From Sphingobacterium sp. UBA7855 (lineage in GTDB: Bacteria > Bacteroidota > Bacteroidia > Sphingobacteriales > Sphingobacteriaceae): a DNA stretch of 64,000 bases. The notes below the pieces were generated by a model. It had not been told where the DNA came from. It made no database searches and saw nothing but the letters and a program-made list of their open reading frames with translations. The translations under genes and the position numbers were made by a program. Of the stretch, positions 14,754-64,000 are shown in pieces. Position 1 is the first letter of the stretch, and each line of letters begins with the position of its first letter. The stretch covers positions 248,001-312,000 of the forward strand of contig DLST01000002.1 in assembly GCA_002500745.1 (NCBI GenBank), in the 5' to 3' direction.

Positions 14754-15470
14754 TTACTCTTCCTTATTCTGTGCTTTCATTAGTAACGCGAAAGCATTTT
14801 TGAGTGCTAATTGTGTATTCTCGTTGTTGTTTTCGAGTGCCGTAAAGACGTCGCTTATGCTGATATTCAAGACTTTCAGCTTGGATGGGTTTACAGCAAC
14901 CTTATATTGTTTGAGTTCTCCACCAAATGTAGCAACATCTGAAACTCCGGGAGTTCCGAGAAGTTGACGGCGCACAGTCCAGTCCTGAATGGTGCGCTAG
15001 TCTGACAGCGAATAGGTCTGTTCATAACCTTTTTGAGGTTTGAGGACATATTGGTAGATTTCACCAAGTCCTGTATTGACGGGAGCGAGTGTAGGAGCAC
15101 TTGCATTTTCGTTTATTTCAATTTGTGCGAGACGCTCTGTGACTTGCTGTCTCGCCCAGTAGATATCGGTGCCATCTTCAAATACAATGGTTATTAAAGA
15201 TAGACCAAACCGCGACATACTTCGACTTTCCTTGATTTCGGGAACATTGCTGACAGCCAATTCCACGGGAAAGGTGATAAGTCGCTCAACGTCTTCGGCA
15301 CCAAGAGAGGGCGCGGTCGTGATAACTTGAACTTGATTGTTCGTAATATCTGGTACGGCATCGATAGGCAACTTGGTCAATTGGTAGATGCCATAGCCGA
15401 CCCATACCAATATAAAAAGACCAATCGCCAGTTTGTTTCGAACTGAGAATTGTATTATTCTATTAAGCAT
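14754..15470 (-). pseudogene. CzcA/CusA-family RND pump pseudogene (truncated, internal TAG)
   Basis: The reading frame begins like a complete heavy-metal RND pump: FSVRNKLAIGLFILV, then LPIDAVPDITNNQVQ, as in the intact pump at 48911. At 14997-14999 a TAG replaces the Leu of the conserved DLRT(I/M)QDW segment, and the same frame continues as RTIQDWTVRRQLLGTPGV and FGGELKQYKVAVNP. Homology stops after TALENNNENT, and a short unrelated tail ending KAQNKEE closes the frame. About 220 of the more than 1000 residues of a normal pump remain, so it cannot be functional. Confidence 0.88.
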
Positions 15471-28238: not shown

Positions 28239-30350
28239 ATGGAAACAAAAATTTATACCGGAAATCCTTACCCTTTAGGAGCAACCTACGATGGGGAAGG
28301 AGTGAACTTTGCACTCTGCTCCGAACACGCTGAGGCTGTTGAACTTTATCTCTATGATAATTCAGATGAGCGAGAAATCGCTAAATTTAAAATCACGGAG
28401 AAAACACATCAAGTGTGGCATATCTATGTTTCTGGAATAAAACCTGGACAACTTTACGGTTATCGAGTACATGGCCCTTATGACCCATCAAACGGACATC
28501 GCTTCAACCCACATAAATTATTGATCGATCCATATGCAAAAGCAATTTCGGGAACCGTTAAATGGAATGATGCTTTATTTGCGTACAAAATAGGAGAAGA
28601 TGACTTAAGCATGGATACAACTGATAGTGCTCCGTTTATTCCTAAAGCTGTCGTTACAAACGACAAATTTGACTGGGGTAGCGATAAGAAACCCAATATT
28701 CCTATGCATAAGAGTGTGATTTATGAAACACACGTAAAAGGCTTTACAGCAATGCACCCCGATATTCCTCAAGAAATAAGGGGAACCTATGCCGCAATGG
28801 GTCACCCTGTTGCCATAAATTATCTGAAGGAATTAGGTGTTACAGCGGTAGAATTATTACCAATCCATCACTTTTTGACGGACCGTCATCTAAAGGATAA
28901 GGGGCTCAGCAACTATTGGGGTTACAACAGCATTGGGTTTTTTGCACCAGATGTGCGCTATTCCGCCTCAGGCTACCATGGAGAACAGGTTTCGGAATTT
29001 AAAGCGATGGTTAAAGCGCTGCATGAGGCAGGGATAGAAGTTATTTTAGATGTGGTGTACAATCATACCGGAGAAGGTAACGAAATGGGACCAACACTCT
29101 CTTTCAGAGGTATTGACAATGCCTCTTATTATCGATTAGCTGACGACCCTCGTTATTACATGGACTTCACCGGAACAGGCAATACACTAAATACCCGCCA
29201 ACCAAATGTACTAAGGATGATTATGGATAGTCTCCGTTATTGGATTCAAGAAATGCATGTAGATGGATTTCGATTCGACCTGGCTTCAGCATTGGCGCGT
29301 GAACTGCACGAAGTCGACAAATTGAGCTCTTTTTTCGATGTGATCCATCAAGATCCAATCATCTCGCAGGTTAAACTGATTGCCGAACCATGGGATATCG
29401 GAGAAGGGGGATATCAAGTTGGCGAGTTCCCTCCCGGCTGGGCCGAATGGAATGGAAAGTATCGCGACTGTATCCGTGATTACTGGATTGGAGCAGATAG
29501 CATGATTGCCGAATTCGCAAACCGACTTACTGGTTCTTCTGATTTATACCATGGCGACAACCGGACCCCTTCGGCCAGTGTCAATTTCATTACCGCACAC
29601 GATGGATTTACGCTTCACGATCTCGTATCCTATAATGAAAAGCACAATGAGGCAAATGGTGAGGACAATCAGGATGGAGAGAGTCATAACCGTTCTTGGA
29701 ACTGTGGTTTCGAAGGACCGACAGATGATCCAGCGATTAATAGCTTAAGGGAGAAACAGAAACGAAATATGCTGACAACATTGTTTCTTTCTCAAGGGGT
29801 TCCCATGCTTGTGGCTGGCGACGAATTTGGCAGAACGCAGCAGGGAAACAATAATGCGTATTGCCAGGACAATGAGATTTCGTGGTTGGATTGGACTAAA
29901 ATGGATGAAAAGCAATTGGATTTCACCAAAAAATTAATCCATCTTCGTAGCGAACATCCTGTATTTTGTCGCCGAAAATGGTTTCAAGGATTACCAATTC
30001 GCGGTACAGGTGTTGAGGATATTGTATGGTTTTTACCTGATGCATCCGAGATGGACGATCATCATTGGCAGGAAGATCATGCTCGTTCACTTGCTGTATA
30101 TTTAAATGGTGAAGGTATTAGATCAGTTGATAACGACGGCAAGAGAATTGTGGATGCAAGTTTTTACCTCTTGTTTAATGCGTATTGGGAAGAGGTATCA
30201 TATCAGCTTCCAAACGAAAATTATGGAACTGGGTGGATTAAGATCTTAGATACGAATAACGATACGATAGAGAATTTCGGAGAGTTTGCTGCGGGTGATA
30301 CTGTCTTGGTTCCGTCACGTTCCATCCTGTTATTTCAATCCCAACAATAG
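28239..30350 (+). CDS. treX: Glycogen debranching enzyme (TreX/GlgX, isoamylase type)
   Basis: 703 residues, typical for the GlgX/TreX branch of GH13_11. It hydrolyses alpha-1,6 branches of glycogen to release linear maltodextrins. An N-terminal CBM48 (YPLGATYDGEGVNFALCSEHA) is followed by the catalytic barrel: ILDVVYNHTGEGNE, the nucleophile in FRFDLASALARE, the Glu in LIAEPWDIG, and the Asp in TAHDGFTLHDLVSYNEKHN. It starts 8 bp after treY-malQ and feeds linear chains to it. Confidence 0.96.
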   Translation: METKIYTGNPYPLGATYDGEGVNFALCSEHAEAVELYLYDNSDEREIAKFKITEKTHQVWHIYVSGIKPGQLYGYRVHGPYDPSNGHRFNPHKLLIDPYAKAISGTVKWNDALFAYKIGEDDLSMDTTDSAPFIPKAVVTNDKFDWGSDKKPNIPMHKSVIYETHVKGFTAMHPDIPQEIRGTYAAMGHPVAINYLKELGVTAVELLPIHHFLTDRHLKDKGLSNYWGYNSIGFFAPDVRYSASGYHGEQVSEFKAMVKALHEAGIEVILDVVYNHTGEGNEMGPTLSFRGIDNASYYRLADDPRYYMDFTGTGNTLNTRQPNVLRMIMDSLRYWIQEMHVDGFRFDLASALARELHEVDKLSSFFDVIHQDPIISQVKLIAEPWDIGEGGYQVGEFPPGWAEWNGKYRDCIRDYWIGADSMIAEFANRLTGSSDLYHGDNRTPSASVNFITAHDGFTLHDLVSYNEKHNEANGEDNQDGESHNRSWNCGFEGPTDDPAINSLREKQKRNMLTTLFLSQGVPMLVAGDEFGRTQQGNNNAYCQDNEISWLDWTKMDEKQLDFTKKLIHLRSEHPVFCRRKWFQGLPIRGTGVEDIVWFLPDASEMDDHHWQEDHARSLAVYLNGEGIRSVDNDGKRIVDASFYLLFNAYWEEVSYQLPNENYGTGWIKILDTNNDTIENFGEFAAGDTVLVPSRSILLFQSQQ

Positions 30351-48910: not shown

Positions 48911-51900
48911 GTGTTAGATCATATTATAAAATTTAGCATCAAGAACAAGATTGTTATCGGTTTGATGACCTTGTTGCTTATCATTTGGGGGGCATGGAGT
49001 GCGACGAAACTGCCCATAGATGCCGTTCCCGATATTACCAATAATCAAGTCCAGATCTTTACATCTTGTCCAACGCTTGCCGGACAGGAAGTGGAGCAAT
49101 TGGTTACTTTTCCAATTGAACAAAGTATCGCGACTGTACCCAAAATTGAAGAGATCAGGAGTATCTCACGCTTCGGCCTTTCTGTCATTACCGTTGTTTT
49201 TGACGATGATGTAGATATTTATTTTGCCCGTCAGCTGATTGGTGAGCGTTTAAATGAAGCTGTGGATCAGATTCCACAAGGTATTGGTAAACCGGAGCTG
49301 GCTCCAGTAAGTACGGGACTGGGAGAAGTATATCAATACATTATCCATCCCAAAAAGGGTAGCGAAAAGAAATACAATGCAAAAGATTTGCGCACCATGC
49401 AAGATTGGATTGTTGCCCGTCAGCTCTATGGAACACCTGGGATTGCCGAGGTCAACAGTTTCGGTGGTGAGCTCAAACAATATGAAGTAGCTGTTGATCC
49501 GAATAGACTTAAGGCAATGAATATCACCATTCCGGAGCTATTTACTGCCTTGGAGAAAAACAATCAAAATACAGGTGGTGCCTATATTGATAAAAAACCG
49601 AATGCCTATTTTATCCGGGGAATTGGTCTGGCGACGTCCTTGGAAGATGTCAGAAATATTGCTATCCGCAAATCAGGATCTATACCGATTTATGTAAAAG
49701 ACGTTGCCGATGTGCGTTTTGGTCATGCAGTGCGCTATGGAGCCCTGACCTACAATGGTGAGGTCGATGCGGTAGGGGGTGTTGTCATGATGTTGAAGGG
49801 TGAAAACAGCAATGAGGTGGTCAATCGGGTGAAAGAGAAATTACCTACTATTCAGCAATCTTTACCGGATGATGTCGTCATAGAACCCTATTTGGACCGA
49901 ACAGATCTCGTTGGGCGTGCGATCAGTACCGTTGAAAAAAATCTGATCGAGGGTGCCCTGATCGTCATTTTTGTCTTGGTACTCTTTCTAGGCAATTTGC
50001 GGGCAGGTCTTATTGTAGCATCAGCAATCCCTCTGGCTTTACTGTTTGCACTTGGACTGATGAACGTCTTCGGCGTAAGCGCCAATTTAATGAGTTTGGG
50101 CGCGATAGATTTTGGTTTGATTGTGGATGGAGCCGTCATTGTGGTGGAAGCTACGTTACACCATTTAGGCTTACGAAAATCAACCGAGAAATTGACCCAG
50201 GCCGAAATGGACCATGAGGTATTTGAGTCTGCTTCAAAGATCCGTACCAGTGCAGCCTTTGGTGAGATTATTATTCTCATTGTCTATATTCCAATTTTAA
50301 CATTGGTGGGGGTTGAAGGGAAGATGTTTCGTCCAATGGCACAAACGGTTGGGTTTGCTATTTTTGGCGCATTGATTCTCTCGCTAACCTATATTCCTAT
50401 GATGTGCGCTTTGTTCCTGCCGAAAAAACAGAACGACAATCAAACCTTGAGCGACCGCATGATTGTGGGATTACAGCTTATTTATGCCCCTTTATTACAG
50501 AAAGCCATTCGGTTTAAATACCTGATCGTGAGTTTAACTGTTGCCATTTTTGCTTTATCGGTCTTCTTTTTTAAGCATATGGGTGGCGAGTTTATTCCAC
50601 AATTGCAGGAAGGTGATTATGCATTCCATTGCATACTTCCGCAGGGAAGTTCGCTTTCGCAGAGTATTGAAACTTCCATGCAGGCTTCCCGGATTATCAA
50701 AGAGTTTGCTGAAGTGAAGATGGTTGTTGGCAAGACAGGAGCCGCTGAGGTGCCAACGGATCCTATGCCACCGGAAGCAACAGATGTTATGGTGGTATTG
50801 AAGCCCCAAAAAGAGTGGAAGTCGGGCCGTTCTTATGAAGAACTGGGGCGTGCTATTCTGGAGAAGCTAGAAGTAATTCCGGGTGTTTTCTTCGAAAAAA
50901 ATCAACCGATTCAAATGCGCTTTAACGAGTTAATGACGGGTATCCGTCAGGATGTTGCTGTAAAGATCTTCGGTGAAAACATCGATTCACTGGCCGCTTA
51001 CGCCAATGTGGTTGCCGCTCAGATTCAATCTGTTCAAGGGGCAACTTCTCCACAGGTGGAGCGTGTATCCGGTCTCCCGCAAATCAATATCGTTTATGAC
51101 CGCACCCGTATCGCAAATTATGGATTGACAATTCAGGACGTCAATGATGTGGTGAGTACTGCCTTTGCCGGTCGGAGTACGGGACAGATCTATGAAAATG
51201 AACGTCGCTTTGATCTGGTCGTCAGGTTAGATACAACGCACCGAAACAGCATTGATGATGTGCGTAATCTGATGATTCCTACAGATACGGGTACGCAGAT
51301 CCCGCTTTCTCAGGTTGCTGCCATTGATTACAAATTGGGGCCGGCACAGATCAGCCGCGAAGCGGGTAAAAGAAGAATTGTGATCGGTTTTAATGTGGCC
51401 GGGCGTGATGTTCAAACCGTCGTAAAAGAAATCGAACGACAATTGACTGCAAATGTAAAGCTTCCCGCGGGCTATTATTTCACCTATGGGGGGCAGTTTG
51501 AGAATTTACAGAAGGCGAGCTCACGCTTGTTGATTGCTGTGCCAGTTTCCTTATTGCTTATTTTTATGCTGTTGTATTTCACGTTTCATTCCTTTAAGCA
51601 GGCCACACTCATCTTTACCGCAATACCAATGAGTGCTATCGGAGGTATCTTTGCTTTAATGTTGCGTGGCATGCCTTTCAGTATTAGTGCCGGTATCGGT
51701 TTTATTGCCTTATTTGGGGTGGCCGTACTCAACGGTATTGTTTTAATTGGAACCTTTAATCAATTGAAAAAGGAGGGGGTAGATGATATTTTTCAGCGTG
51801 TTAAAGAAGGCACTTTGACGCGTTTACGTCCTGTTCTCATGACAGCGACGGTAGCCTCACTGGGCTTTTTACCGATGGCTATCAGTACAAGTGCCGGCGC

Positions 51901-53233
51901 TGAAGTTCAGAAGCCTCTGGCCACCGTTGTGATTGGCGGATTAATAACGGCAACTTTCCTGACCTTGTTTGTGCTGCCGTTATTGTATATAATTTTTAAT
52001 TCTAAATGGAATATGAAACGAAGTAGTGGTGCTAAGACCTTTTTTACAATATTTATTTTCTTATTTATGATGTTGGGCTTTCAGGTGTTTGCCCAGGAGC
52101 GCATTTCTGTTACAGAAGCTGTGGAATTTGCGCTGAAGAGCAATCGTCAGTTTCAGATCAATCAGGCTGAGATCGCAGGAGCAGGTTTTAATGTCAAAAC
52201 GGCAACCGAAATTCCCAAGACAGGGATCTTTGCAGAAAATGAAGACTATCGTCCATCAGATAAGACCGGGCTGCTGAAAATCGGTGTAACGCAAAGTATG
52301 GCCTGGCCCGGACTCTATGCGGCGCGTAAAGATTATTTTAAACAGCAACTAAAATATGCGAATCTAAATACGGATGTATTGAAATCTGCGATTACCAAAG
52401 ATGTAAGGGCAGCCTATTTTCAGCTCTGGTATCTCCAGGATCGCCAAAAGTTGTATATGGAGTTGGATAGTATCTACAGCGGCATGTTTAAAGCAACAGA
52501 ATTACGTTTTAAGACTGGTGATGTCGCTGCGCTGGATAAGATCGCTGCAGAAGCAAAATTGAAAGAGCTGCAGGCTCAGTTGGTTCAAAACAAAAAGGAT
52601 ATTGTTATTCAGCAGCAGCAATTGATGATGTTGTTAGACCGTAATGAGTGGATGCTTCCTTTGGATCAGCCCTTGGAGAAGATTATCGTGAACGCCAGTC
52701 CATCTGAGGAAACAGTACATCCTTTACTTGTTTTACAGCAGCAAAATGTAAATATCGCATCATCAAATATCAGTGTTCAGAAAAATACAAATAAGCCGGA
52801 GTTCTCGGGTCGATTTTTCTCCCAACGTGTTTGGGGAGCCAAGGATCCGTTATCGGGATTCTCGGTCTCCGCATCTTTTCCGGTCTTTAGCCTAGGCGCT
52901 TATAAAAGTAAAGTAAAGGCTGCCAACGCTGAAATGGAAGTTCAACAGCGTAAGTTAGAATATGAGACGCAGGTATTTCAGACAAATAAAGGGAATGCAC
53001 TTGCTGAAATTGACAAGAACAGTGCATTACTGCAATTTTACGAGTCTTCGGGTCTAAAACAAGCCGATGCAATCATTAAAGCGGCTAGTTTGGGTTATAG
53101 AACAGGGGAGATCAATTTTGCTGAATTAAGTCAATTTTTAAGTCAGGCTATAGGGATTCGCCAGAATTATTTAGAAGTCCTTAATCAGTATAATCAATCA
53201 GCAATTCAATATAATTACTTCAATAACAAATAA
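48911..53233 (+). CDS. cusA: CusA/CzcA heavy-metal RND pump fused to a TolC-like outer-membrane domain
   Basis: 1440 residues from a GTG start. Residues 1-~1030 are a proton-driven RND pump: LPIDAVPDITNNQVQ at the first periplasmic loop, proton-relay helix GAIDFGLIVDGAVIVVE, MGGEFIPQLQEGDYA, and a long C-terminal transmembrane block. At about residue 1035 comes MKRSSGAKTFFTIFIFLFMM, reading like a fresh signal peptide ending QVFAQ, followed by a TolC/OEP domain (VTEAVEFALKSNRQFQINQA, YFQLWYLQDRQKLY). Pump and outer-membrane channel are thus one polypeptide. The CusB adaptor gene follows 7 bp later. Confidence 0.93.
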   Translation: MLDHIIKFSIKNKIVIGLMTLLLIIWGAWSATKLPIDAVPDITNNQVQIFTSCPTLAGQEVEQLVTFPIEQSIATVPKIEEIRSISRFGLSVITVVFDDDVDIYFARQLIGERLNEAVDQIPQGIGKPELAPVSTGLGEVYQYIIHPKKGSEKKYNAKDLRTMQDWIVARQLYGTPGIAEVNSFGGELKQYEVAVDPNRLKAMNITIPELFTALEKNNQNTGGAYIDKKPNAYFIRGIGLATSLEDVRNIAIRKSGSIPIYVKDVADVRFGHAVRYGALTYNGEVDAVGGVVMMLKGENSNEVVNRVKEKLPTIQQSLPDDVVIEPYLDRTDLVGRAISTVEKNLIEGALIVIFVLVLFLGNLRAGLIVASAIPLALLFALGLMNVFGVSANLMSLGAIDFGLIVDGAVIVVEATLHHLGLRKSTEKLTQAEMDHEVFESASKIRTSAAFGEIIILIVYIPILTLVGVEGKMFRPMAQTVGFAIFGALILSLTYIPMMCALFLPKKQNDNQTLSDRMIVGLQLIYAPLLQKAIRFKYLIVSLTVAIFALSVFFFKHMGGEFIPQLQEGDYAFHCILPQGSSLSQSIETSMQASRIIKEFAEVKMVVGKTGAAEVPTDPMPPEATDVMVVLKPQKEWKSGRSYEELGRAILEKLEVIPGVFFEKNQPIQMRFNELMTGIRQDVAVKIFGENIDSLAAYANVVAAQIQSVQGATSPQVERVSGLPQINIVYDRTRIANYGLTIQDVNDVVSTAFAGRSTGQIYENERRFDLVVRLDTTHRNSIDDVRNLMIPTDTGTQIPLSQVAAIDYKLGPAQISREAGKRRIVIGFNVAGRDVQTVVKEIERQLTANVKLPAGYYFTYGGQFENLQKASSRLLIAVPVSLLLIFMLLYFTFHSFKQATLIFTAIPMSAIGGIFALMLRGMPFSISAGIGFIALFGVAVLNGIVLIGTFNQLKKEGVDDIFQRVKEGTLTRLRPVLMTATVASLGFLPMAISTSAGAEVQKPLATVVIGGLITATFLTLFVLPLLYIIFNSKWNMKRSSGAKTFFTIFIFLFMMLGFQVFAQERISVTEAVEFALKSNRQFQINQAEIAGAGFNVKTATEIPKTGIFAENEDYRPSDKTGLLKIGVTQSMAWPGLYAARKDYFKQQLKYANLNTDVLKSAITKDVRAAYFQLWYLQDRQKLYMELDSIYSGMFKATELRFKTGDVAALDKIAAEAKLKELQAQLVQNKKDIVIQQQQLMMLLDRNEWMLPLDQPLEKIIVNASPSEETVHPLLVLQQQNVNIASSNISVQKNTNKPEFSGRFFSQRVWGAKDPLSGFSVSASFPVFSLGAYKSKVKAANAEMEVQQRKLEYETQVFQTNKGNALAEIDKNSALLQFYESSGLKQADAIIKAASLGYRTGEINFAELSQFLSQAIGIRQNYLEVLNQYNQSAIQYNYFNNK

Positions 53234-56720: not shown

Positions 56721-57839
56721 ATGCTATCTATGAACAGTTTTTTCCAAAATTACAATACGGGGAAACGTATTCTTCTTCATTTGTGTTTTTGGTTTTTGGT
56801 TTTGGGAATGCAATTTATTTCCTATCAACGGATAGATATTCATAATTCGTGGATATTGTTTCTAAAAGATGTATTTTCTTTATTGACCATATTTTATGTG
56901 ACAGCTTATGTTATTATTCCGCGTTGGTTTATTTCGGGAAAGTTTTTGCTGTGTATTTTATGGCTATTGTTTATTTACGCCTGGTGGTCGTTTCTAAGTT
57001 ATTTTGGTGCCATATTAACACTAAAATATTTGACGCCAGATATTCGTTTGTCAAGTTATCTCGAAATAGTACAAAGCAATGGAATCTTTGGAGCCTTTCG
57101 GCTTTCTTCCCTTAGCGATTATTTATTAGATTTTATTTTTTTAGTGGCCCTACCATTGACCGTAAAAATAGTGCAGGCATTTATGTCTGTCAGAAATTCC
57201 AAGACGAAGCTCGAACTGAAAAATGCTGCATTGGAATTAAACAACGTTCAATTGGAGCTCGCTTTTCTAAAATACCAGATCAACCCGCATTTTTTACTTA
57301 ATACACTTTATAGTATCTATGTGCTAGTATCGGATCGTGATGAAAGAGGTGGTGAAAGTATGATGCGTTTAAGTAGTATTATGGTGTATCTGCTTCACGA
57401 AAGCAACCAGCCCCAGGTGGATATTAGTCGCGAATTTCAACTGCTTAAAGACTATGTTGAATTGGAAAAGTTGCGTTATAGTGAGACCGTGCAGATCAAT
57501 CTAAATCTGGCGGCTGATGACGAGAACTGTATGATGGTGCCCCTCATCTTCTTTCCGTTTGTTGAAAATGCATTCAAACATGGACCTCGCCTAAGTTCAT
57601 CGGCGGGATGGATATCCATAGCCATAAAAGTGAAGGACCATAAGGTGCATTTGAACGTGTCCAATGCGTATAGGGAACTTTCAAAACCAGAAAATTATAT
57701 CGGTGGCTTAGGGATAGAAAATGTAAGAAAAAGACTGGAACTTCACTATCCCCATCATCACATTTTGGAAATAAAGTCAAATGAGGGTGTGTTTACTGTT
57801 AATCTCGTCGTAACTTTACTTCCTGAAGAAAAGCCGTAG
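56721..57839 (+). CDS. LytS/YehU-type sensor histidine kinase
   Basis: About 372 residues; a GTG at 56703 and an ATG at 56730 are alternative starts. Four hydrophobic helices fill the first ~160 residues, then a coiled coil, then the His_kinase domain with phospho-acceptor His in LKYQINPHFLLNTLYSI. The ATP-binding region has FFPFVENAFKHG and GGLGIENVRKRLELHYP. It has no large extracellular domain, so the signal is probably sensed in the membrane. The cognate LytTR gene follows after 28 bp. Confidence 0.93.
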   Translation: MLSMNSFFQNYNTGKRILLHLCFWFLVLGMQFISYQRIDIHNSWILFLKDVFSLLTIFYVTAYVIIPRWFISGKFLLCILWLLFIYAWWSFLSYFGAILTLKYLTPDIRLSSYLEIVQSNGIFGAFRLSSLSDYLLDFIFLVALPLTVKIVQAFMSVRNSKTKLELKNAALELNNVQLELAFLKYQINPHFLLNTLYSIYVLVSDRDERGGESMMRLSSIMVYLLHESNQPQVDISREFQLLKDYVELEKLRYSETVQINLNLAADDENCMMVPLIFFPFVENAFKHGPRLSSSAGWISIAIKVKDHKVHLNVSNAYRELSKPENYIGGLGIENVRKRLELHYPHHHILEIKSNEGVFTVNLVVTLLPEEKP

Positions 57840-57867
57840 CACCAAAGCTGTGGATTGCTAAGTACTT

Positions 57868-58572
57868 ATGAATAGAATTAGAACTATCCTTATTGAAGAT
57901 GAGCCAATTGCAAGAGGTCGCCTGGAGAAATTAGTTTCCAAATTGGGGCTGATCGAAATATTGGGTGTATTTGAAAATCCGTCGCAGGCCATTGATATCT
58001 TGAAAAAGCATGAGATAGACCTTATTTTGTCGGATATTGATATGCCGGAGATGGATGGCATTACTTTTCTCAAAGGACTTGTTCATCCGCCTTTTGTTGT
58101 GTTTATAACTGGCCATTATGAATATGCCGTCGATGGATTCGAACTGGATGTAATCGATTATATTTTAAAGCCACAGCTGACAGAAGAAAGGTTAATCAAA
58201 GCAATAGAGAAAGTTCAGAAGGCTATGCTGTTTTCTAGAAGGGCCGCTAATGGAGAAAGAAAAGCGATTAAAATAAGGGATCGGAATAAGACTATTTTTA
58301 TAGATCCTACGGATGTTTTCTACCTAAAAGCTTGGGGGGATTATATACAGATCTATTCCGTAGAAGGGATGCAAACTTTACTGTCTACCATGAAAGATAT
58401 GGAAGCAGAACTGCCATGGGATATGTTTGCGCGCATGCATCGTTCTTATATCGTTAATGTCAAGCAGATCAAGGGTGTTGAGGCAAGCAAAGTAATTCTG
58501 AAAAATGGAACAGAACTCGGTATAGGTTTGCAATACCGCAATCAGCTTTTTGCTAAGATGGGACTGATATAA
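57868..58572 (+). CDS. LytTR-type response regulator
   Basis: 234 residues. The receiver holds LIEDEPIARGRLEKL, D56 in LILSDIDMPEMDG, and the Lys in DYILKPQ. After a linker, the LytTR DNA-binding domain begins at about residue 140: IFIDPTDVFYLKAWGDYIQI, MHRSYIVNVKQIKG and NGTELGIGLQYRNQL. It forms an operon with the kinase and ends 4 bases from the convergent dehydratase gene. The direct repeats at 62322-62527 have the spacing preferred by LytTR domains and are candidate targets. Confidence 0.94.
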   Translation: MNRIRTILIEDEPIARGRLEKLVSKLGLIEILGVFENPSQAIDILKKHEIDLILSDIDMPEMDGITFLKGLVHPPFVVFITGHYEYAVDGFELDVIDYILKPQLTEERLIKAIEKVQKAMLFSRRAANGERKAIKIRDRNKTIFIDPTDVFYLKAWGDYIQIYSVEGMQTLLSTMKDMEAELPWDMFARMHRSYIVNVKQIKGVEASKVILKNGTELGIGLQYRNQLFAKMGLI

Positions 58573-58576
58573 AAAT

Positions 58577-61500
58577 TTAATTTATCGAGGCCATACGCTC
58601 TTTCTGTTTCCCGATCTGCATTTTATAATAGCAAACCATAAAATGATAGACCGCAAGTTCATGCAAACGTTGATCCGACATGAACAATCGATTAATAAAC
58701 ATGTGAATATAGCTTGACAATAACGAGGCCCGGGTTGACCGGAACTCTTCTTCATCTGTATGTTTCCGTAAGGTGGAGAATATGCTGTATTGGACTGCAC
58801 TTAGTTTCTCTTTGGTTTCTCCCAGGTGGTCTAATGGCTGAGCGAACCAGTCTTTCCTATCTTTGAACTTATTGTTTAGATGAACCCATAGATTTTTATT
58901 ATTGTCAAACTCTTGCTGATACAACGTATTCATCTGGATGCAAAAATCTCTTTTTTCGAATAGCGTAAATTTTGCAGCATCAAATAACGATTCCATATGT
59001 TGAAAAGCCAAAAGCCAGCGATCGTTTATTGAGCTGCTTTGCTGGATTGCCATCAATATGATTTCGCTCTGCCGGAAGAATAACTCCTCGCTAGGTTCCA
59101 TACATAATGGGGTATATCGTTCAATCTCGCGTTTGTAAGTATCAAAGGATATTGATGAAATCTGGCCCTCTTCCACAAATTGTTCCAATAGATGATTTAT
59201 AGTGGAGACAACGAAAGAACAATAGCTTGGGTCTGAAAGCTCCACCCTCAATCTTATGTGGGGAGCTGGATCGTTATAACGTATGAAAAACCATTTTTTT
59301 ATGGCATTTTTTCGATTGATAGCAGCGATGAACGTGGGGAAAAGATCCTTTAATAGGGTGTCTGCAAAATGTAATCCGCAATAAATTTTAGCGTAAAGCC
59401 ATTCCGTTCCCAGGGGAAAACATCTTTTTAGGTTGTTTTCTTGGGGGGCCGATTCATCTGTGAAAGTCTTCTGCTGAGCTTCAATTGGAATAATGATCTC
59501 ATTGGCAAAAACATTTCCATCTTTATCGTTTACAACGGATGAATAATCGTTCAGGATATATTCGATTAAAATTGTTTCCCTTTTGCAGATGTGATCCAAT
59601 AGTATTTCCGCGCAAAAAGGATTGTCTAAATTTATCAGCAGTTCATTATCGCCGCTGCTGATGACAACCATTGTTGGGATTTTGAGCTCTGCCTGCATAT
59701 TTTTCACGAAATCGTGGGGGTGACTTGGGTATTTTGAAAGTCTTTGAATGCGCCATTGCGCTCGGGATAAGATAATATTTTTGTAGCTTATTCTCGGGAG
59801 CCTAGGCTGTTCTTTCATAATTCCCCAATTCCAAGAGATATCCAGCCTGTTATTTTGGAATTGGAAATCTGCAAGAAATTTATAGATATTCATACCCTGC
59901 TCAAAATTGTGGGCCGTCGTCAAACGGGGGATAACCATTTTATTGCAATTTTTGGACCACAAGACTAGGCGATTGTCTTTGACAAACAGGTATAAGTCAC
60001 TTACGTCAATTTGTTCTTGTTCTTTGTCAATAGTTGCGGTCAAACAGATGGATGCTCTTCGGAGTGCTGGTCTAGAAATAATATTTGCGGCATTGCTATC
60101 TGGATAATGGCATATCTCAGCGAGTATTGCATTTGGAAATTGCTGTTGTTCGCTGTTGGCAGATTCCTTTAATTTGTTAGCCAATTTCTCATCCAGATGT
60201 GCAAATCTGGAAATTAAGTTTCCGGATGACGAGCCACCAATAGTACCCAGATTGAAGCATAAATGTTCCTCACGTGAGCTTCTCAGAAGATTGCCAATGG
60301 CATAGAACGAGGAAGGTATGGCATTGGGAGTCTGTTTGCACCCTTTAGCAATATGATCTAGATCGCTTTTGGTTAGCTGAATTTCGGTGAAATGACTTTT
60401 TACACTTTCTACAAATTTTTCAATCACCAGGTCTTGATAATGGTGGTCGTCATATTTTTTTTCTTCAGTTATGGCTATATTTTTTACTTCTCCAAGTATT
60501 TCATCATTTATATTGTATACACCCTCCTGACGGCCATAACCAATACCGGTATCGGGGTCTAAGGCCGTAGTCAATGGGATCATTCTATCTTCATATTTAT
60601 CAGAGAATGCAGCTTTAAACCGGTCAAAATCTGTCAACTTTGCCGGCGTGCAAAGTGGTAGTAAATCCTGAAATTGATCGCTTAGGTGATTTAATGCAGT
60701 ATTGGGTAATTTGTTGTCTTCCATTTCAATAAGTAGGTCTCCCTGCAACAAATTGTTCCTGTCGAGGTCTGGAATTATAGGCTGCAATAATTTAACCACG
60801 TCATTCTGTATGTTAACGGCAGATGGAGAACTACGCAGCAGTGTTTGTATCCTTGATAAAGCATTCAAATAATATCCCTCCTTATCCACTCTTTCAAGCG
60901 TCTTGATCAAACTGTCAAGATAACCTCGACCAATCACATTGGGTTGTAATTCGGAGGATATAATCCCGAGACTGATGAGGTTATTGACGAATAGGGTAGC
61001 ATGTGCTTTTAAAGCTCCAAGAAGCTGCAGCAAATCAGTCAATGATTGATAGTTGGCAGTTCGCTCATCGCTTTGGAAATATTCGACGACACGATCCAAA
61101 ACAGGAGTAGGTCTTATGCGCTTTAGTATATTCTGCCCTTTCTTCCCATTTGTTACTTTTTGATAGTATTTGTAATACTTGCCATCTAAGTATAAGGTTG
61201 GATTAATGCGATAATTGAGTTGACTATAAACTCTTCTGTCTTTTGAGACCTGTGCAATAATCCCTGTCACAATGGAGGCATCGAGTTTCAATACAGTTTT
61301 ATGGGTATTACCCCTGATTAATGACACCTTTTTTTCGGAGGCTATAACGTTCCCTAAAGATACACCTGCGAATAAACCGAAAGGCGTACTCCTTGTGCTC
61401 ATCCGAATCGCATATTTGAGTAGCGAAGCCATTATTTTTGGGTTACTCGCTTTCTTGTAGTCAATCCATTTTTCTACTTCCACGGAGAAGGAGGGGCTTG

Positions 61501-61660
61501 CTAGAAATAGTGCCTCTTTTAATCGCTCACCTTGAAACAGATGACGAAGTTTCTCTTCCATAACATCTGCCTCTTTTATCCTTAAAAGATCAACGGCAGC
61601 TGCAGCTGGAAGTAATGGTGTCCGCAGAAGAAAATAATCGGATAACTGGAATAATGACAT
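58577..61660 (-). CDS. Full-length lantibiotic dehydratase (LanB-type)
   Basis: 1027 residues, close to the length of NisB-type dehydratases. These use glutamyl-tRNA to activate Ser/Thr of a precursor peptide and then eliminate glutamate to leave dehydroalanine or dehydrobutyrine. The N-terminal glutamylation domain has IRMSTRSTPFGLFAGVSLG and RPALRRASICLTA. The C-terminal elimination (SpaB_C) domain, from about residue 740, has WLYAKIYCGLHFADTLL and KKWFFIRYNDPAPHIRLRV. Both halves are in one protein, unlike split systems of some Bacteroidota. It starts 12 bp after the receiver gene and lies downstream of the peptide gene. No cyclase gene is near. Confidence 0.93.
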   Translation of the reverse strand: MSLFQLSDYFLLRTPLLPAAAAVDLLRIKEADVMEEKLRHLFQGERLKEALFLASPSFSVEVEKWIDYKKASNPKIMASLLKYAIRMSTRSTPFGLFAGVSLGNVIASEKKVSLIRGNTHKTVLKLDASIVTGIIAQVSKDRRVYSQLNYRINPTLYLDGKYYKYYQKVTNGKKGQNILKRIRPTPVLDRVVEYFQSDERTANYQSLTDLLQLLGALKAHATLFVNNLISLGIISSELQPNVIGRGYLDSLIKTLERVDKEGYYLNALSRIQTLLRSSPSAVNIQNDVVKLLQPIIPDLDRNNLLQGDLLIEMEDNKLPNTALNHLSDQFQDLLPLCTPAKLTDFDRFKAAFSDKYEDRMIPLTTALDPDTGIGYGRQEGVYNINDEILGEVKNIAITEEKKYDDHHYQDLVIEKFVESVKSHFTEIQLTKSDLDHIAKGCKQTPNAIPSSFYAIGNLLRSSREEHLCFNLGTIGGSSSGNLISRFAHLDEKLANKLKESANSEQQQFPNAILAEICHYPDSNAANIISRPALRRASICLTATIDKEQEQIDVSDLYLFVKDNRLVLWSKNCNKMVIPRLTTAHNFEQGMNIYKFLADFQFQNNRLDISWNWGIMKEQPRLPRISYKNIILSRAQWRIQRLSKYPSHPHDFVKNMQAELKIPTMVVISSGDNELLINLDNPFCAEILLDHICKRETILIEYILNDYSSVVNDKDGNVFANEIIIPIEAQQKTFTDESAPQENNLKRCFPLGTEWLYAKIYCGLHFADTLLKDLFPTFIAAINRKNAIKKWFFIRYNDPAPHIRLRVELSDPSYCSFVVSTINHLLEQFVEEGQISSISFDTYKREIERYTPLCMEPSEELFFRQSEIILMAIQQSSSINDRWLLAFQHMESLFDAAKFTLFEKRDFCIQMNTLYQQEFDNNKNLWVHLNNKFKDRKDWFAQPLDHLGETKEKLSAVQYSIFSTLRKHTDEEEFRSTRASLLSSYIHMFINRLFMSDQRLHELAVYHFMVCYYKMQIGKQKERMASIN

Positions 61661-61672
61661 AGGTAGGCGGGA

Positions 61673-62041
61673 CTAGTATCTCATGACCTGTTTTATACAG
61701 GACTGAAACATTTCGGGCGAAATTGGTTTTTGCAGTGCAAAATGCTTCCTATTTTTGATAAATTCAGGATATTGCCGATGTGACAAAGCGGAGGTAATAA
61801 TTAGGATAGGAATATCGACGATCAAATCGGCAAGCGTACTGATATTGCCGCCGCTAACGATGAGATCTAAGAATAGGATGTCTGCCGATTTTAAATCTTG
61901 CCTAAATAATGCTGGATTTTCAATGTCTTCGACCATTCTTATCAATTGAAGATCTGGAAACATATGGATGTATTCAACCATTTTTTTTGTTGCCAAGGGT
62001 TCATCCTCTATGAGAATACATTTGAGTTGGGGTGAAGTCAT
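61673..62041 (-). CDS. Stand-alone receiver within the RiPP operon
   Basis: 122 residues, one receiver domain without output: CILIEDEPLATKKMVEY, D59 in ILFLDLIVSGG, IITSALS and the Lys in LQKPIS. It is related to the receiver of the LytTR regulator at 57868. It sits between the peptide gene and lanB, 12 bp from the latter. It could accept phosphate from the same kinase and so damp or branch the signal. Confidence 0.9.
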   Translation of the reverse strand: MTSPQLKCILIEDEPLATKKMVEYIHMFPDLQLIRMVEDIENPALFRQDLKSADILFLDLIVSGGNISTLADLIVDIPILIITSALSHRQYPEFIKNRKHFALQKPISPEMFQSCIKQVMRY

Positions 62042-62084
62042 ATACTTGGTTTGTTTTTTATGTATCGGGGTCGCAAAGACGATT

Positions 62085-62118
62085 GCTGTAAAGACGCCTA
62101 CCAGAACGCCTTTACAGC
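62085..62118 (-). terminator. Stem-loop between precursor peptide and receiver genes (attenuator-like)
   Basis: GCTGTAAAG (62085-62093) pairs with CTTTACAGC (62110-62118), extended by C-G pairs after one mismatch. It begins 11 bases after the peptide stop codon. Such hairpins often stabilise or partly terminate the message so that the peptide is made in excess over its enzymes. Confidence 0.6.
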
Positions 62119-62129
62119 TTTATCCTCTT

Positions 62130-62273
62130 TTATACTACTTTTGAAGATGTGACTGTCCTAATCGTTACTAGTTCCATATCATCAAAATCAAAAAATGAGA
62201 TCGGTTCAACCACGCAGACAGTTTGTACATCCAATACAAAATCTTCCGCTAAAAAATTTTCAATGTTTTCCAT
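62130..62273 (-). CDS. Putative RiPP precursor peptide (lanthipeptide-type leader)
   Basis: 47 residues from ATG 62273. A longer in-frame opening to 62375 has Arg/Phe-rich, non-protein-like sequence, so I prefer the internal start. The acidic leader contains FVLD at 12-15, matching the F(N/D/x)LD box recognised by class I dehydratases, then DVQTVC with the single Cys at 20 and a DFDD cluster at 29-32. The tail TIRTVTSSKVV is rich in Thr and Ser, the targets of the dehydratase, and has no Cys. It is the first gene of the operon with receiver and lanB. Precursor assignment is by context, leader and composition; the cleavage site is unknown. Confidence 0.72.
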   Translation of the reverse strand: MENIENFLAEDFVLDVQTVCVVEPISFFDFDDMELVTIRTVTSSKVV

Positions 62274-62321: not shown

Positions 62322-62391
62322 CGACGAAAAATATCGACGGAATGGAAAATGAAGCCGACGAACTAAAAAATCCATTCGACGAAAAAATAGC
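62322..62391 (-). promoter_or_regulatory. Candidate LytTR operator cluster A
   Basis: CGACG cores start at 62322, 62335, 62356 and 62377. The last three are exactly 21 bp apart, two helical turns, which is the spacing of LytTR-bound direct repeats (9-bp boxes with 12-bp gap). They lie 49 to 118 bases upstream of the precursor ATG. The link with the LytTR protein at 57868 is inference. Confidence 0.55.
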
Positions 62392-62494: not shown

Positions 62495-62527
62495 CGACGA
62501 AATAGCATTTGAGTACGATGAAATAGC
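62495..62527 (-). promoter_or_regulatory. Candidate LytTR operator cluster B
   Basis: CGACGAAATAGC (62495-62506) and CGATGAAATAGC (62516-62527) are near-identical direct repeats 21 bp apart. The distal copy of cluster A (62377-62391) shares CGACGAAA and ATAGC. Cluster B is about 220-255 bases upstream of the precursor start and about 200 bases upstream of the divergent gene at 62729, so it could serve either. Confidence 0.5.
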
Positions 62528-63135: not shown

Positions 63136-64000
63136 ATGGCGACAGATCTTTATAAAGATACAGTTTATATACCTTTGGAAGATGTTGAAAGCGAACATTG
63201 CGCATCAATTGTCGAAAAAGGACTAGCCCAGGTTAAAGGCCTGGCGAGCTATCGGGTGGAATTGAATAATCACAGAGCTGCTATCGTACCGAAGGATAGT
63301 GCAGCAGTCATTAGCAGTGTAAAGGCGATCAAAGATCTTGGTTATGGTGTTTCTACATTGACCAAAACATTTCCAGTTCTTGGGATGACTTGCGCCTCAT
63401 GCGCCAGTAGCGCTGAAAGTATGGCGAAATATGAACAGGGGGTTGTTAATGCAGCTGTAAATTATGCAACAGGAAATCTCACTGTTGAATATATTCCCGG
63501 TGTGACAGATCCTTTAAAAATCCAAAAGGCGGTCCAAGCTGGTGGCTATGATCTGTTAATTGAAGAGGAATCCACACAGCAGGAAACTTTGGAGGCTATT
63601 CACGCGGAGAAATTCCGTAAGCTTAAGGTCAAAACACGTTGGGCAGTGTTGCTATCACTTCCCGTAGTGATCATTGGTATGTTTTTTATGAATATGCCTT
63701 ACGCTAATCCTATCATGTGGCTTTTTTCCACGCCAGTGGTTCTTTGGCTGGGCAAGGATTTTTTTGTCAATGCGTGGAAGCAGGCAAAACATCGTTCCGC
63801 CAACATGGACACACTCGTTGCATTAAGTACAGGGATAGCCTACATTTTCAGTGTATTCAACATGCTTTTTGCTGACTTTTGGCATCAACGCGGCTTACAT
63901 GCGCATGTATATTTTGAGGCCGCTTCAGTTGTCATAGCTTTCATTTTGTTGGGTAAACTACTGGAGGAGAAGGCCAAAGGTAACACCTCATCCGCTATTA
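63136..64000 (+). CDS. copA: Copper-type P1B ATPase, N-terminal part (3' truncated by window edge)
   Basis: Frame open to the window end, 288 residues visible. The first metal-binding domain is degenerate: DVESEHCASIVEKGL keeps one Cys where GMxCxxC is expected. The second is intact with VLGMTCASCASSAES. After a basic linker the first membrane helices begin (WAVLLSLPVVIIGMFFMNMP, ANPIMWLFSTPVVLWLG), then HRSANMDTLVALSTG and the start of the actuator region (EAASVVIAFILLGKLLEEKAKG). It exports soft monovalent metals from the cytoplasm and complements the efflux operon at 48.4-54.5 kb. Confidence 0.92.
   Translation, partial: MATDLYKDTVYIPLEDVESEHCASIVEKGLAQVKGLASYRVELNNHRAAIVPKDSAAVISSVKAIKDLGYGVSTLTKTFPVLGMTCASCASSAESMAKYEQGVVNAAVNYATGNLTVEYIPGVTDPLKIQKAVQAGGYDLLIEEESTQQETLEAIHAEKFRKLKVKTRWAVLLSLPVVIIGMFFMNMPYANPIMWLFSTPVVLWLGKDFFVNAWKQAKHRSANMDTLVALSTGIAYIFSVFNMLFADFWHQRGLHAHVYFEAASVVIAFILLGKLLEEKAKGNTSSAI

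Follow-up and report, generated by a model that had tools for sequence, protein, structure and literature searches.

We analysed a compact gene cassette at positions 56,721 to 62,273 of a 64,000-nucleotide stretch of DNA from Sphingobacterium sp. UBA7855 (the window, whose coordinates are used throughout). A plus-strand LytS-type kinase and LytTR regulator converge here on a minus-strand trio of genes for a small peptide, a stand-alone receiver and a complete LanB-type dehydratase. The same layout had been given in a preliminary description of this DNA, and the coordinates and frames of all five genes, re-read from the sequence, agreed with it. The locus probably represents a variant form of the class I ribosomally synthesised and post-translationally modified peptides (RiPPs) and comprises the following features:

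56721..57839, plus strand: LytS-type sensor histidine kinase (PF06580; hydrophobic N-terminus)
57868..58572, plus strand: LytTR response regulator (PF00072 and PF04397)
58577..61660, minus strand: full-length class I LanB-type dehydratase, 1027 amino acids (aa; PF04738 and PF14028)
61673..62041, minus strand: stand-alone receiver domain of divergent sequence (122 aa; assigned by predicted fold and residues), lying 12 bp upstream of lanB
62130..62273, minus strand: 47-aa precursor with an FVLD box, Cys20 and a Cys-free tail rich in Thr and Ser (TIRTVTSSKVV)
62335..62383, minus strand: three half-sites at 21-bp spacing (TTCGTCG, TTCGTCG, TTCCGTCG region), a putative LytTR array that precedes the peptide start by about 60-110 bp
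62495..62522, minus strand: second half-site pair farther upstream (TTCATCG ... TTCGTCG), also at 21-bp spacing

In the Pfam search the PF06580 kinase adjoined a receiver-LytTR regulator, the arrangement of a LytS/LytTR two-component system. The kinase start codon is ambiguous (GTG 56703, ATG 56721 as in the preliminary description, or ATG 56730, all in one frame).

The window LanB scored 404 bits against PF04738 and 198 bits against PF14028, and so contains both the glutamylation and the elimination domain of a class I lanthipeptide dehydratase. Using the NisB alignment and the HxxxNR motif, NisB residues Y80, R83, R87, T89, W616 and H961 were matched to Y83, R86, R90, T92, W636 and H986 of the window LanB. 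These six, as well as R803, R805 and R848, were invariant in 25 of 25 aligned LanBs, four of which come from LanC-bearing loci. Motif positions were taken from PMC3091789 and the key NisB residues from PMC4341554, according to which Y80F and H961A abolish dehydration. A structural model of the enzyme (predicted local distance difference test score, pLDDT, 82.8; predicted template-modelling score 0.70) had MadB, MibB and NisB as nearest structures (Foldseek E = 2.5e-51 against MadB and 6e-44 against NisB); its domain packing is uncertain because the root-mean-square deviation was high (17-18 A). Judged by its domains and residues, the window LanB should dehydrate Ser and Thr of the peptide.

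Other LanB-family loci also lack LanC, namely those for pearlins, pyritides, thiopeptides and goadsporin, and PMC11002830 and PMC10676384 describe pearlin and pyritide precursors without Cys. The LanBs of these cyclase-less relatives are truncated or split, according to the same sources; several of the systems also have azole- or pyridine-forming enzymes. The cassette, in contrast, has one complete single-chain LanB, and no azole- or pyridine-forming family is constant in it. Because its LanB is complete, the locus is by these criteria neither a pearlin nor a pyritide locus. The enzyme might still act like a peptide aminoacyl-tRNA ligase (PEARL) or glutamylase, adding residues instead of dehydrating, since PEARL clusters likewise have neither LanC nor precursor Cys; yet PEARLs, according to PMC11002830, are short LanBs with a glutamylation-like domain only, and the window enzyme has a complete elimination domain in which the NisB H961 equivalent and the HIRLR/ERY arginines are invariant (25/25). 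We consider a PEARL-like activity improbable.

The precursor reads MENIENFLAEDFVLDVQTVCVVEPISFFDFDDMELVTIRTVTSSKVV, with 47 aa, FVLD at positions 12-15, a sole Cys at position 20 and none thereafter, as the preliminary description had it. An 81-aa start of the same open reading frame (ORF) was rejected, and the 47-aa start adopted, because several orthologues exist solely in a 47-48 aa form and eight of the nine clusters of database homologues are 47-49 aa long. The peptide had been called unannotated; this held for the NCBIfam and Pfam profile libraries, in which it had no match, while two of the nine database clusters bear the name 'hypothetical protein'.

Recurrence of the cassette in Bacteroidota

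Within the genus Sphingobacterium, 33 of 93 genomes had a LanB match and 18 genomes carried a total of 24 cassettes, all 24 with peptide, receiver, LanB and convergent LytTR/LytS in identical order. They fall into clades A (the window's; 14 loci, counting L043 despite its broken LanB), B (8 loci) and C (2 loci, with two kinases). The nearest genome examined, G001, has a LanB 99% identical to that of the window and holds a second cassette, of clade B, whose LanB is 30% identical. As flanking genes differ between subclades, the five genes behave as a unit, and the recurrence of one order in 24 cassettes, together with a ratio of nonsynonymous to synonymous polymorphism (pN/pS) of 0.19 when the eight closest peptide orthologues (clade A1) were compared in all pairs, argues against a chance assembly. 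By this measure the window-type peptides are under purifying selection; the A3 pair gave a ratio of 0.23 and the pair from clade C one of 0.56. Whether the peptide stays beside lanB in homologous loci had been set beforehand as a test of the preliminary description, and it does.

The leader box differs between clades. The FxLD box is that of the window's clade; elsewhere a K-E/T-[IV] box or FLKIEK/YLELE takes its place. Chitinophaga precursors (n = 10) have a box like LxLxKE[IV][VI]xK[AT]D and no Cys; this box is a form of the canonical LxLDKETIAKL leader. A leader box was present in 16 of 17 placed precursors and in 14 of 1024 other small ORFs of the same loci, the placement having been guided in part by the box itself and hence not blind.

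Outside the genus, a scan of named genomes with the LanB alignment confirmed at least 565 stretches, of which the best 80 were kept (79 loci); this sample leans to the cassette's own LanBs, and LanC and receivers were called by home-made hidden Markov models. We found 26 LanC-less loci with a receiver (five of them genus loci already within the 24), 43 with LanC and no receiver, one with both and nine with neither, although four of the nine are misfiled (L087 has a receiver and a broken LanB; the receiver of L119 is degenerate, and those of L130 and L139 lie on the opposite strand). Receiver-call loci thus had no LanC within about 5 kb in 26 of 27 cases, and LanC loci had no receiver in 43 of 44 (Fisher p = 3e-12, shared ancestry ignored). 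The 26 loci belong to Sphingobacterium, Olivibacter, 'bacterium A37T11', Chitinophaga, Rudanella, Spirosoma, Fibrella, Dyadobacter, Emticicia, a Pedobacter metagenome-assembled genome and two uncultured Cytophagales-type metagenome-assembled genomes. The branch, which had been supposed to be small, therefore spans several Bacteroidota families. In a LanB tree of 110 rows the label 'LanC-less with receiver' required 5 changes, as compared to 34.9 when shuffled, and it lay mainly in three LanB clades (Sphingobacteriaceae, Chitinophaga and Cytophagales); as the tree is quick, unrooted and long-branched, we make no claim of loss versus gain of LanC. A family-wide LanB search matched 172 of 399 genomes at E <= 1e-60 and supplied 11 further loci with 1.5-kb flanks: seven with LanC and receiver, two with receiver only and two with neither.

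A separate LanB clade of the genus (L065-L071 and L073; 919-971 aa) has LytTR/LytS nearby, convergent in seven of the eight loci; neither LanC nor a receiver was called at these loci, and inspection by eye showed no evident precursor.

Cyclase, cysteines and export

No LanC is linked to any cassette, so that the cyclase of class I lanthipeptide clusters is missing from the locus, as had been noted for the window. A search with PF05147 found no match in 11 of the 18 cassette genomes and full or partial matches in the other seven. G001 has one partial LanC-like match (32.8 bits, profile positions 3-150 of 350), 1.13 Mb away. The gene concerned (L003, 1432-2334) adjoins a glycosyltransferase-like ORF, and no LanB lies in that 3.4-kb locus.

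A core Cys for lanthionine formation is likewise missing: the last 25 residues are free of Cys in all 24 genus peptides. Thirteen of the 24 are free of Cys altogether (L046, L047 and L049 of clade A and all 10 peptides of clades B and C), and the window-type peptide of L048 has Cys at position 3 only. Typical tails end in TIRTVTSSKVV, TIRTITSSRII or TTITISSSVFI (clade A), TVTMTTSYS or LTIMTSMTYN (clade B) and PTFATSTLF (clade C). With no linked LanC and no Cys in the core tail, the product is not a lanthipeptide by the tests made. It could nevertheless be an ordinary lanthipeptide if a LanC encoded elsewhere acted in trans on Cys20, for which one might cite the partial LanC-like gene of G001, the PF05147 matches in seven genomes and the one Cys of the window peptide. 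This is most unlikely, as the genomes without a match include three (G092, G070, G079) with the same Cys20-type peptide, the 13 peptides named above are Cys-free and the sole Cys of L048 is at position 3, and the G001 gene lies beside the glycosyltransferase-like ORF. Cyclisation by an enzyme elsewhere, which the preliminary description had offered as one outcome, is accordingly unlikely in the form of LanC chemistry.

LanC-linked and LanC-less precursors were also compared. Of the small ORFs with a leader motif, 75 of 78 had a tail Cys at LanC loci (representing 24 of the 44 LanC loci, the others having no motif-bearing ORFs), as compared to 6 of 21 at loci with a receiver and no LanC. For one precursor per locus, picked by us, Cys occurred in the last 25 residues of 20/20 LanC-linked and 8/46 LanC-less precursors; all 20 of the former contain GG or GA (Gly-Gly or Gly-Ala), as compared to 10/46 of the latter, and the Ser plus Thr fraction of the last 15 residues was 0.18 and 0.36, respectively.

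The 48 LanC-less receiver loci (about 43 distinct) share, in all or nearly all cases, only the receiver/regulator, kinase and LanB families. Further families are common mainly to close relatives, except for an export cluster, HlyD-like by eye, at five non-genus loci (L094, L095, L100, L121, L150); ABC/C39 matches lie at L094, L118 and L121. Clusters with C39/ABC matches were present at 23 of 52 LanC loci and such matches at 4 of the 24 genus cassettes (L038, L052, L059, L061; stretches up to 20 kb). Somewhere in the genome, C39 peptidases occurred in 12 of 13 LanC-less genomes examined, namely the 11 whose cassettes were read and two with broken LanBs, G052 and G038. MFS, OsmC and copper-ATPase neighbours were rejected as a constant exporter or peptidase, being common to the window's close relatives only. 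Secretion is unsupported within the genus, and since there is no constant exporter or leader peptidase and 22 of 24 precursors have no GG, the product would act in the cell or exit by a general route.

This restricted gene content also bears on whether the dehydrated peptide is cross-linked by non-Cys nucleophiles or by an unlinked enzyme to a cyclic non-lanthionine product. Dha and Dhb (dehydroalanine and dehydrobutyrine) are electrophilic, and most window-clade tails have a basic or polar residue after SS (SSKV, SSRI, SSQI). Against this, no extra enzyme is constant, the largest further non-genus cluster (5 of 48 loci) reads as an export protein, and the tails of clades B and C show no conserved Lys; a cross-linked product thus seems unlikely to us.

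Elsewhere in the window, a 1440-aa ORF (48911-53233) reads in translation as a fusion of a CzcA/CusA pump with a TolC-like part, 157 aa at 14997-15470 read as a fragment of another CzcA-like pump, and a P-type-ATPase-like ORF begins at 63136.

Promoter repeats and the receiver

The exact 21-bp TTCGTCG pattern matched four times in the window against 0.22 expected, a number reached in 0 of 100 shuffles; three matches lie at the cassette and one at 29944. Exact matches in G001, G092, G079, G057 and G080 numbered 2, 3, 1, 1 and 0, six of the seven at the cassette, and a reversed control pattern gave two in total over the same genomes. When spacings of 10-32 bp were scanned, GTC[GT] pairs at 21 bp were found in 10/14 clade A and 9/10 Chitinophaga promoters, as compared to at most 2/14 and 1/10 at any other spacing. 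The strict repeat pattern was present in 10/14 window-type, 9/10 Chitinophaga and 1/7 Cytophagales promoters; a relaxed half-site, chosen after the sequences had been inspected, was present in 14/14, 10/10 and 6/7 (shuffle maxima 3, 2 and 2). In a test for three copies, 10 of the 14 window-type promoters reached p <= 0.06. The usual binding site of LytTR proteins, as stated in PMC6193735, consists of 9-bp repeats with 12 bp between them (9-12-9 bp). Direct repeats of about 21-bp period upstream of the promoter, as in a LytTR regulon, were found in the window clade and not in clades B and C. In the repeat-bearing clades the adjacent LytTR protein would drive the operon. LytTR-controlled peptide and bacteriocin loci share the 21-bp-period direct repeats upstream (PMC6193735); the cassette differs from them in its half-site (GTCG/GTCT), in the three copies of the window clade and in the extra receiver. 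In the clade B promoters of L038, L054, L057 and L058, which have no direct repeats, the peptide is preceded by an inverted GTCAAAC / GTTTGACGAG-like arrangement.

The stand-alone receiver, which the preliminary description had listed and left unexplained, is constant in the cassette. In the Pfam search the window receiver scored 16.2 bits, under the cut-off of 30.2. Its model (pLDDT 91.9) matched solved receiver domains (template-modelling score 0.63-0.78 among the best 50 rows, best E = 1.1e-5), and the acid pair, Asp, Ser and Lys are all retained, so that fold and residues together identify a REC domain. Among 52 compared receivers (about 47 distinct; Lys scored in alignment A2), five (L095, L119, L138, L140, L155) lack the acid pair and phospho-Asp, or most of these, and the same five lack the Lys. 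Since the receiver persists beside LanB after loss of the phosphosite, a structural role with LanB, rather than solely that of a phosphate sink, is suggested; most likely the receiver serves as a subunit or switch associated with LanB. No receiver-LanB fusion was seen among the best 120 of 1821 LanB relatives. One relative of 1156 aa (P0080) has an N-terminal extension of about 130 residues, by eye perhaps Ntn-hydrolase-like; it was flagged in the motif scan and rejected as a receiver fusion, as its sequence is unlike a receiver.

Proposed working of the cassette

Taken together, these data suggest that the cassette is probably a compact two-component-controlled class I RiPP system without lanthionine, whose product would carry Dha/Dhb; the preliminary description's regulated branch with a lanthionine-free dehydroamino-acid product is supported to this extent. 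The LytS kinase would sense a signal and activate the LytTR regulator; the latter would bind the direct repeats that precede the peptide gene at 21-bp spacing, switching on peptide, receiver and lanB together. LanB would then bind the leader box (FxLD in the window clade), glutamylate Thr and Ser of the C-terminal tail from Glu-tRNA, and eliminate glutamate to leave Dhb and Dha. With neither LanC nor a usable core Cys, the product would stay free of lanthionine, most likely as a linear dehydropeptide.

By analogy, the cassette would work like a class I LanB system halted after dehydration. With class I lanthipeptide clusters such as those of nisin and the pinensins, the latter being examples from Bacteroidota named in PMC7268733, it shares a recognisable leader box and a LanB of full length in which both domains and the key residues are present. 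It differs in having no linked LanC, no constant exporter or C39 peptidase, a single precursor gene, Cys-free tails within the genus, mostly no GG, and a receiver beside LanB. Two-component control is common to both, the nisin cluster being regulated in this way. Pedobacter-type loci (L089, L163-L169) share the receiver beside LanB and the convergent LytTR (with LytS where the stretch reaches), and differ in having LanC.

Several observations weigh against this interpretation. The Pedobacter-type loci (L089 and seven of the 11 loci from the family-wide search) have LanC, receiver and LanB in a row, L089 additionally with GG/Cys precursors and a C39 transporter; the receiver is therefore not limited to LanC-less loci. 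Eight LanC-less precursors have a Cys within the last 25 residues, among them that of L100, where GG/Cys precursors lie nearby; the link between LanC and Cys amounts to only four independent contrasts on the tree and is not significant alone; and a single LanC-independent ring is conceivable at the lone Cys20 of the window peptide. GG is present in two of the 24 genus precursors (L049, L052), and an exporter-type gene lies in the stretch at 6 of 21 non-genus LanC-less receiver loci. Even with the relaxed pattern, direct repeats were present in 0/10 clade B and C, 0/3 Olivibacter-type and 0/2 Pedobacter promoters. Finally, internal stops, splits or frameshifts break the window-type LanB in G088 (L008/L043), G052 (L013), G038 (L016) and S. 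multivorum NCTC11343 (L087); the remaining cassette genes persist in these relatives. Such breaks, and the existence of the LanC-bearing arrangement with a receiver, would fit a decaying remnant that has lost LanC, exporter and peptidase and whose remainder is drifting. We give this explanation very little weight, since the window-type peptide is under purifying selection, catalytic residues are invariant, promoter repeats are conserved and LanC-less receiver loci occur in three main LanB clades.

The cassette family would have been missed by surveys that anchor on LanC: PMC7268733 describes a PF05147 search from which ORFs without Cys in the estimated core were dropped, and PMC3091789 one that began with a LanC screen. 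A search of titles and beginnings of abstracts found no publication on this cassette, a weak negative as subscription papers, e.g. on Pedobacter lanthipeptides, lay mostly outside its coverage. A precedent for a regulatory rather than an antibiotic role is, by analogy, a LanM-like protein of Clostridium acetobutylicum that functions downstream of Agr and is not accompanied by other lanthipeptide genes, according to PMC10301443.

The cassette presents a minimal system and raises the questions of what a complete LanB accomplishes when there is no cyclase, what purpose a lanthionine-free dehydropeptide serves and whether a receiver domain can control a RiPP enzyme. On a more speculative proposal, which we hold possible though doubtful, the receiver would be a dedicated dehydratase subunit, and one kinase would both set transcription via LytTR and gate LanB activity or leader release via receiver phosphorylation. 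The dehydropeptide would not be a secreted lantibiotic but would remain inside or close to the producer, serving as a signal or reactive effector, and in lineages without the phosphosite the switch would have turned into a constitutive structural partner. If true, this would place a RiPP enzyme under direct two-component control.

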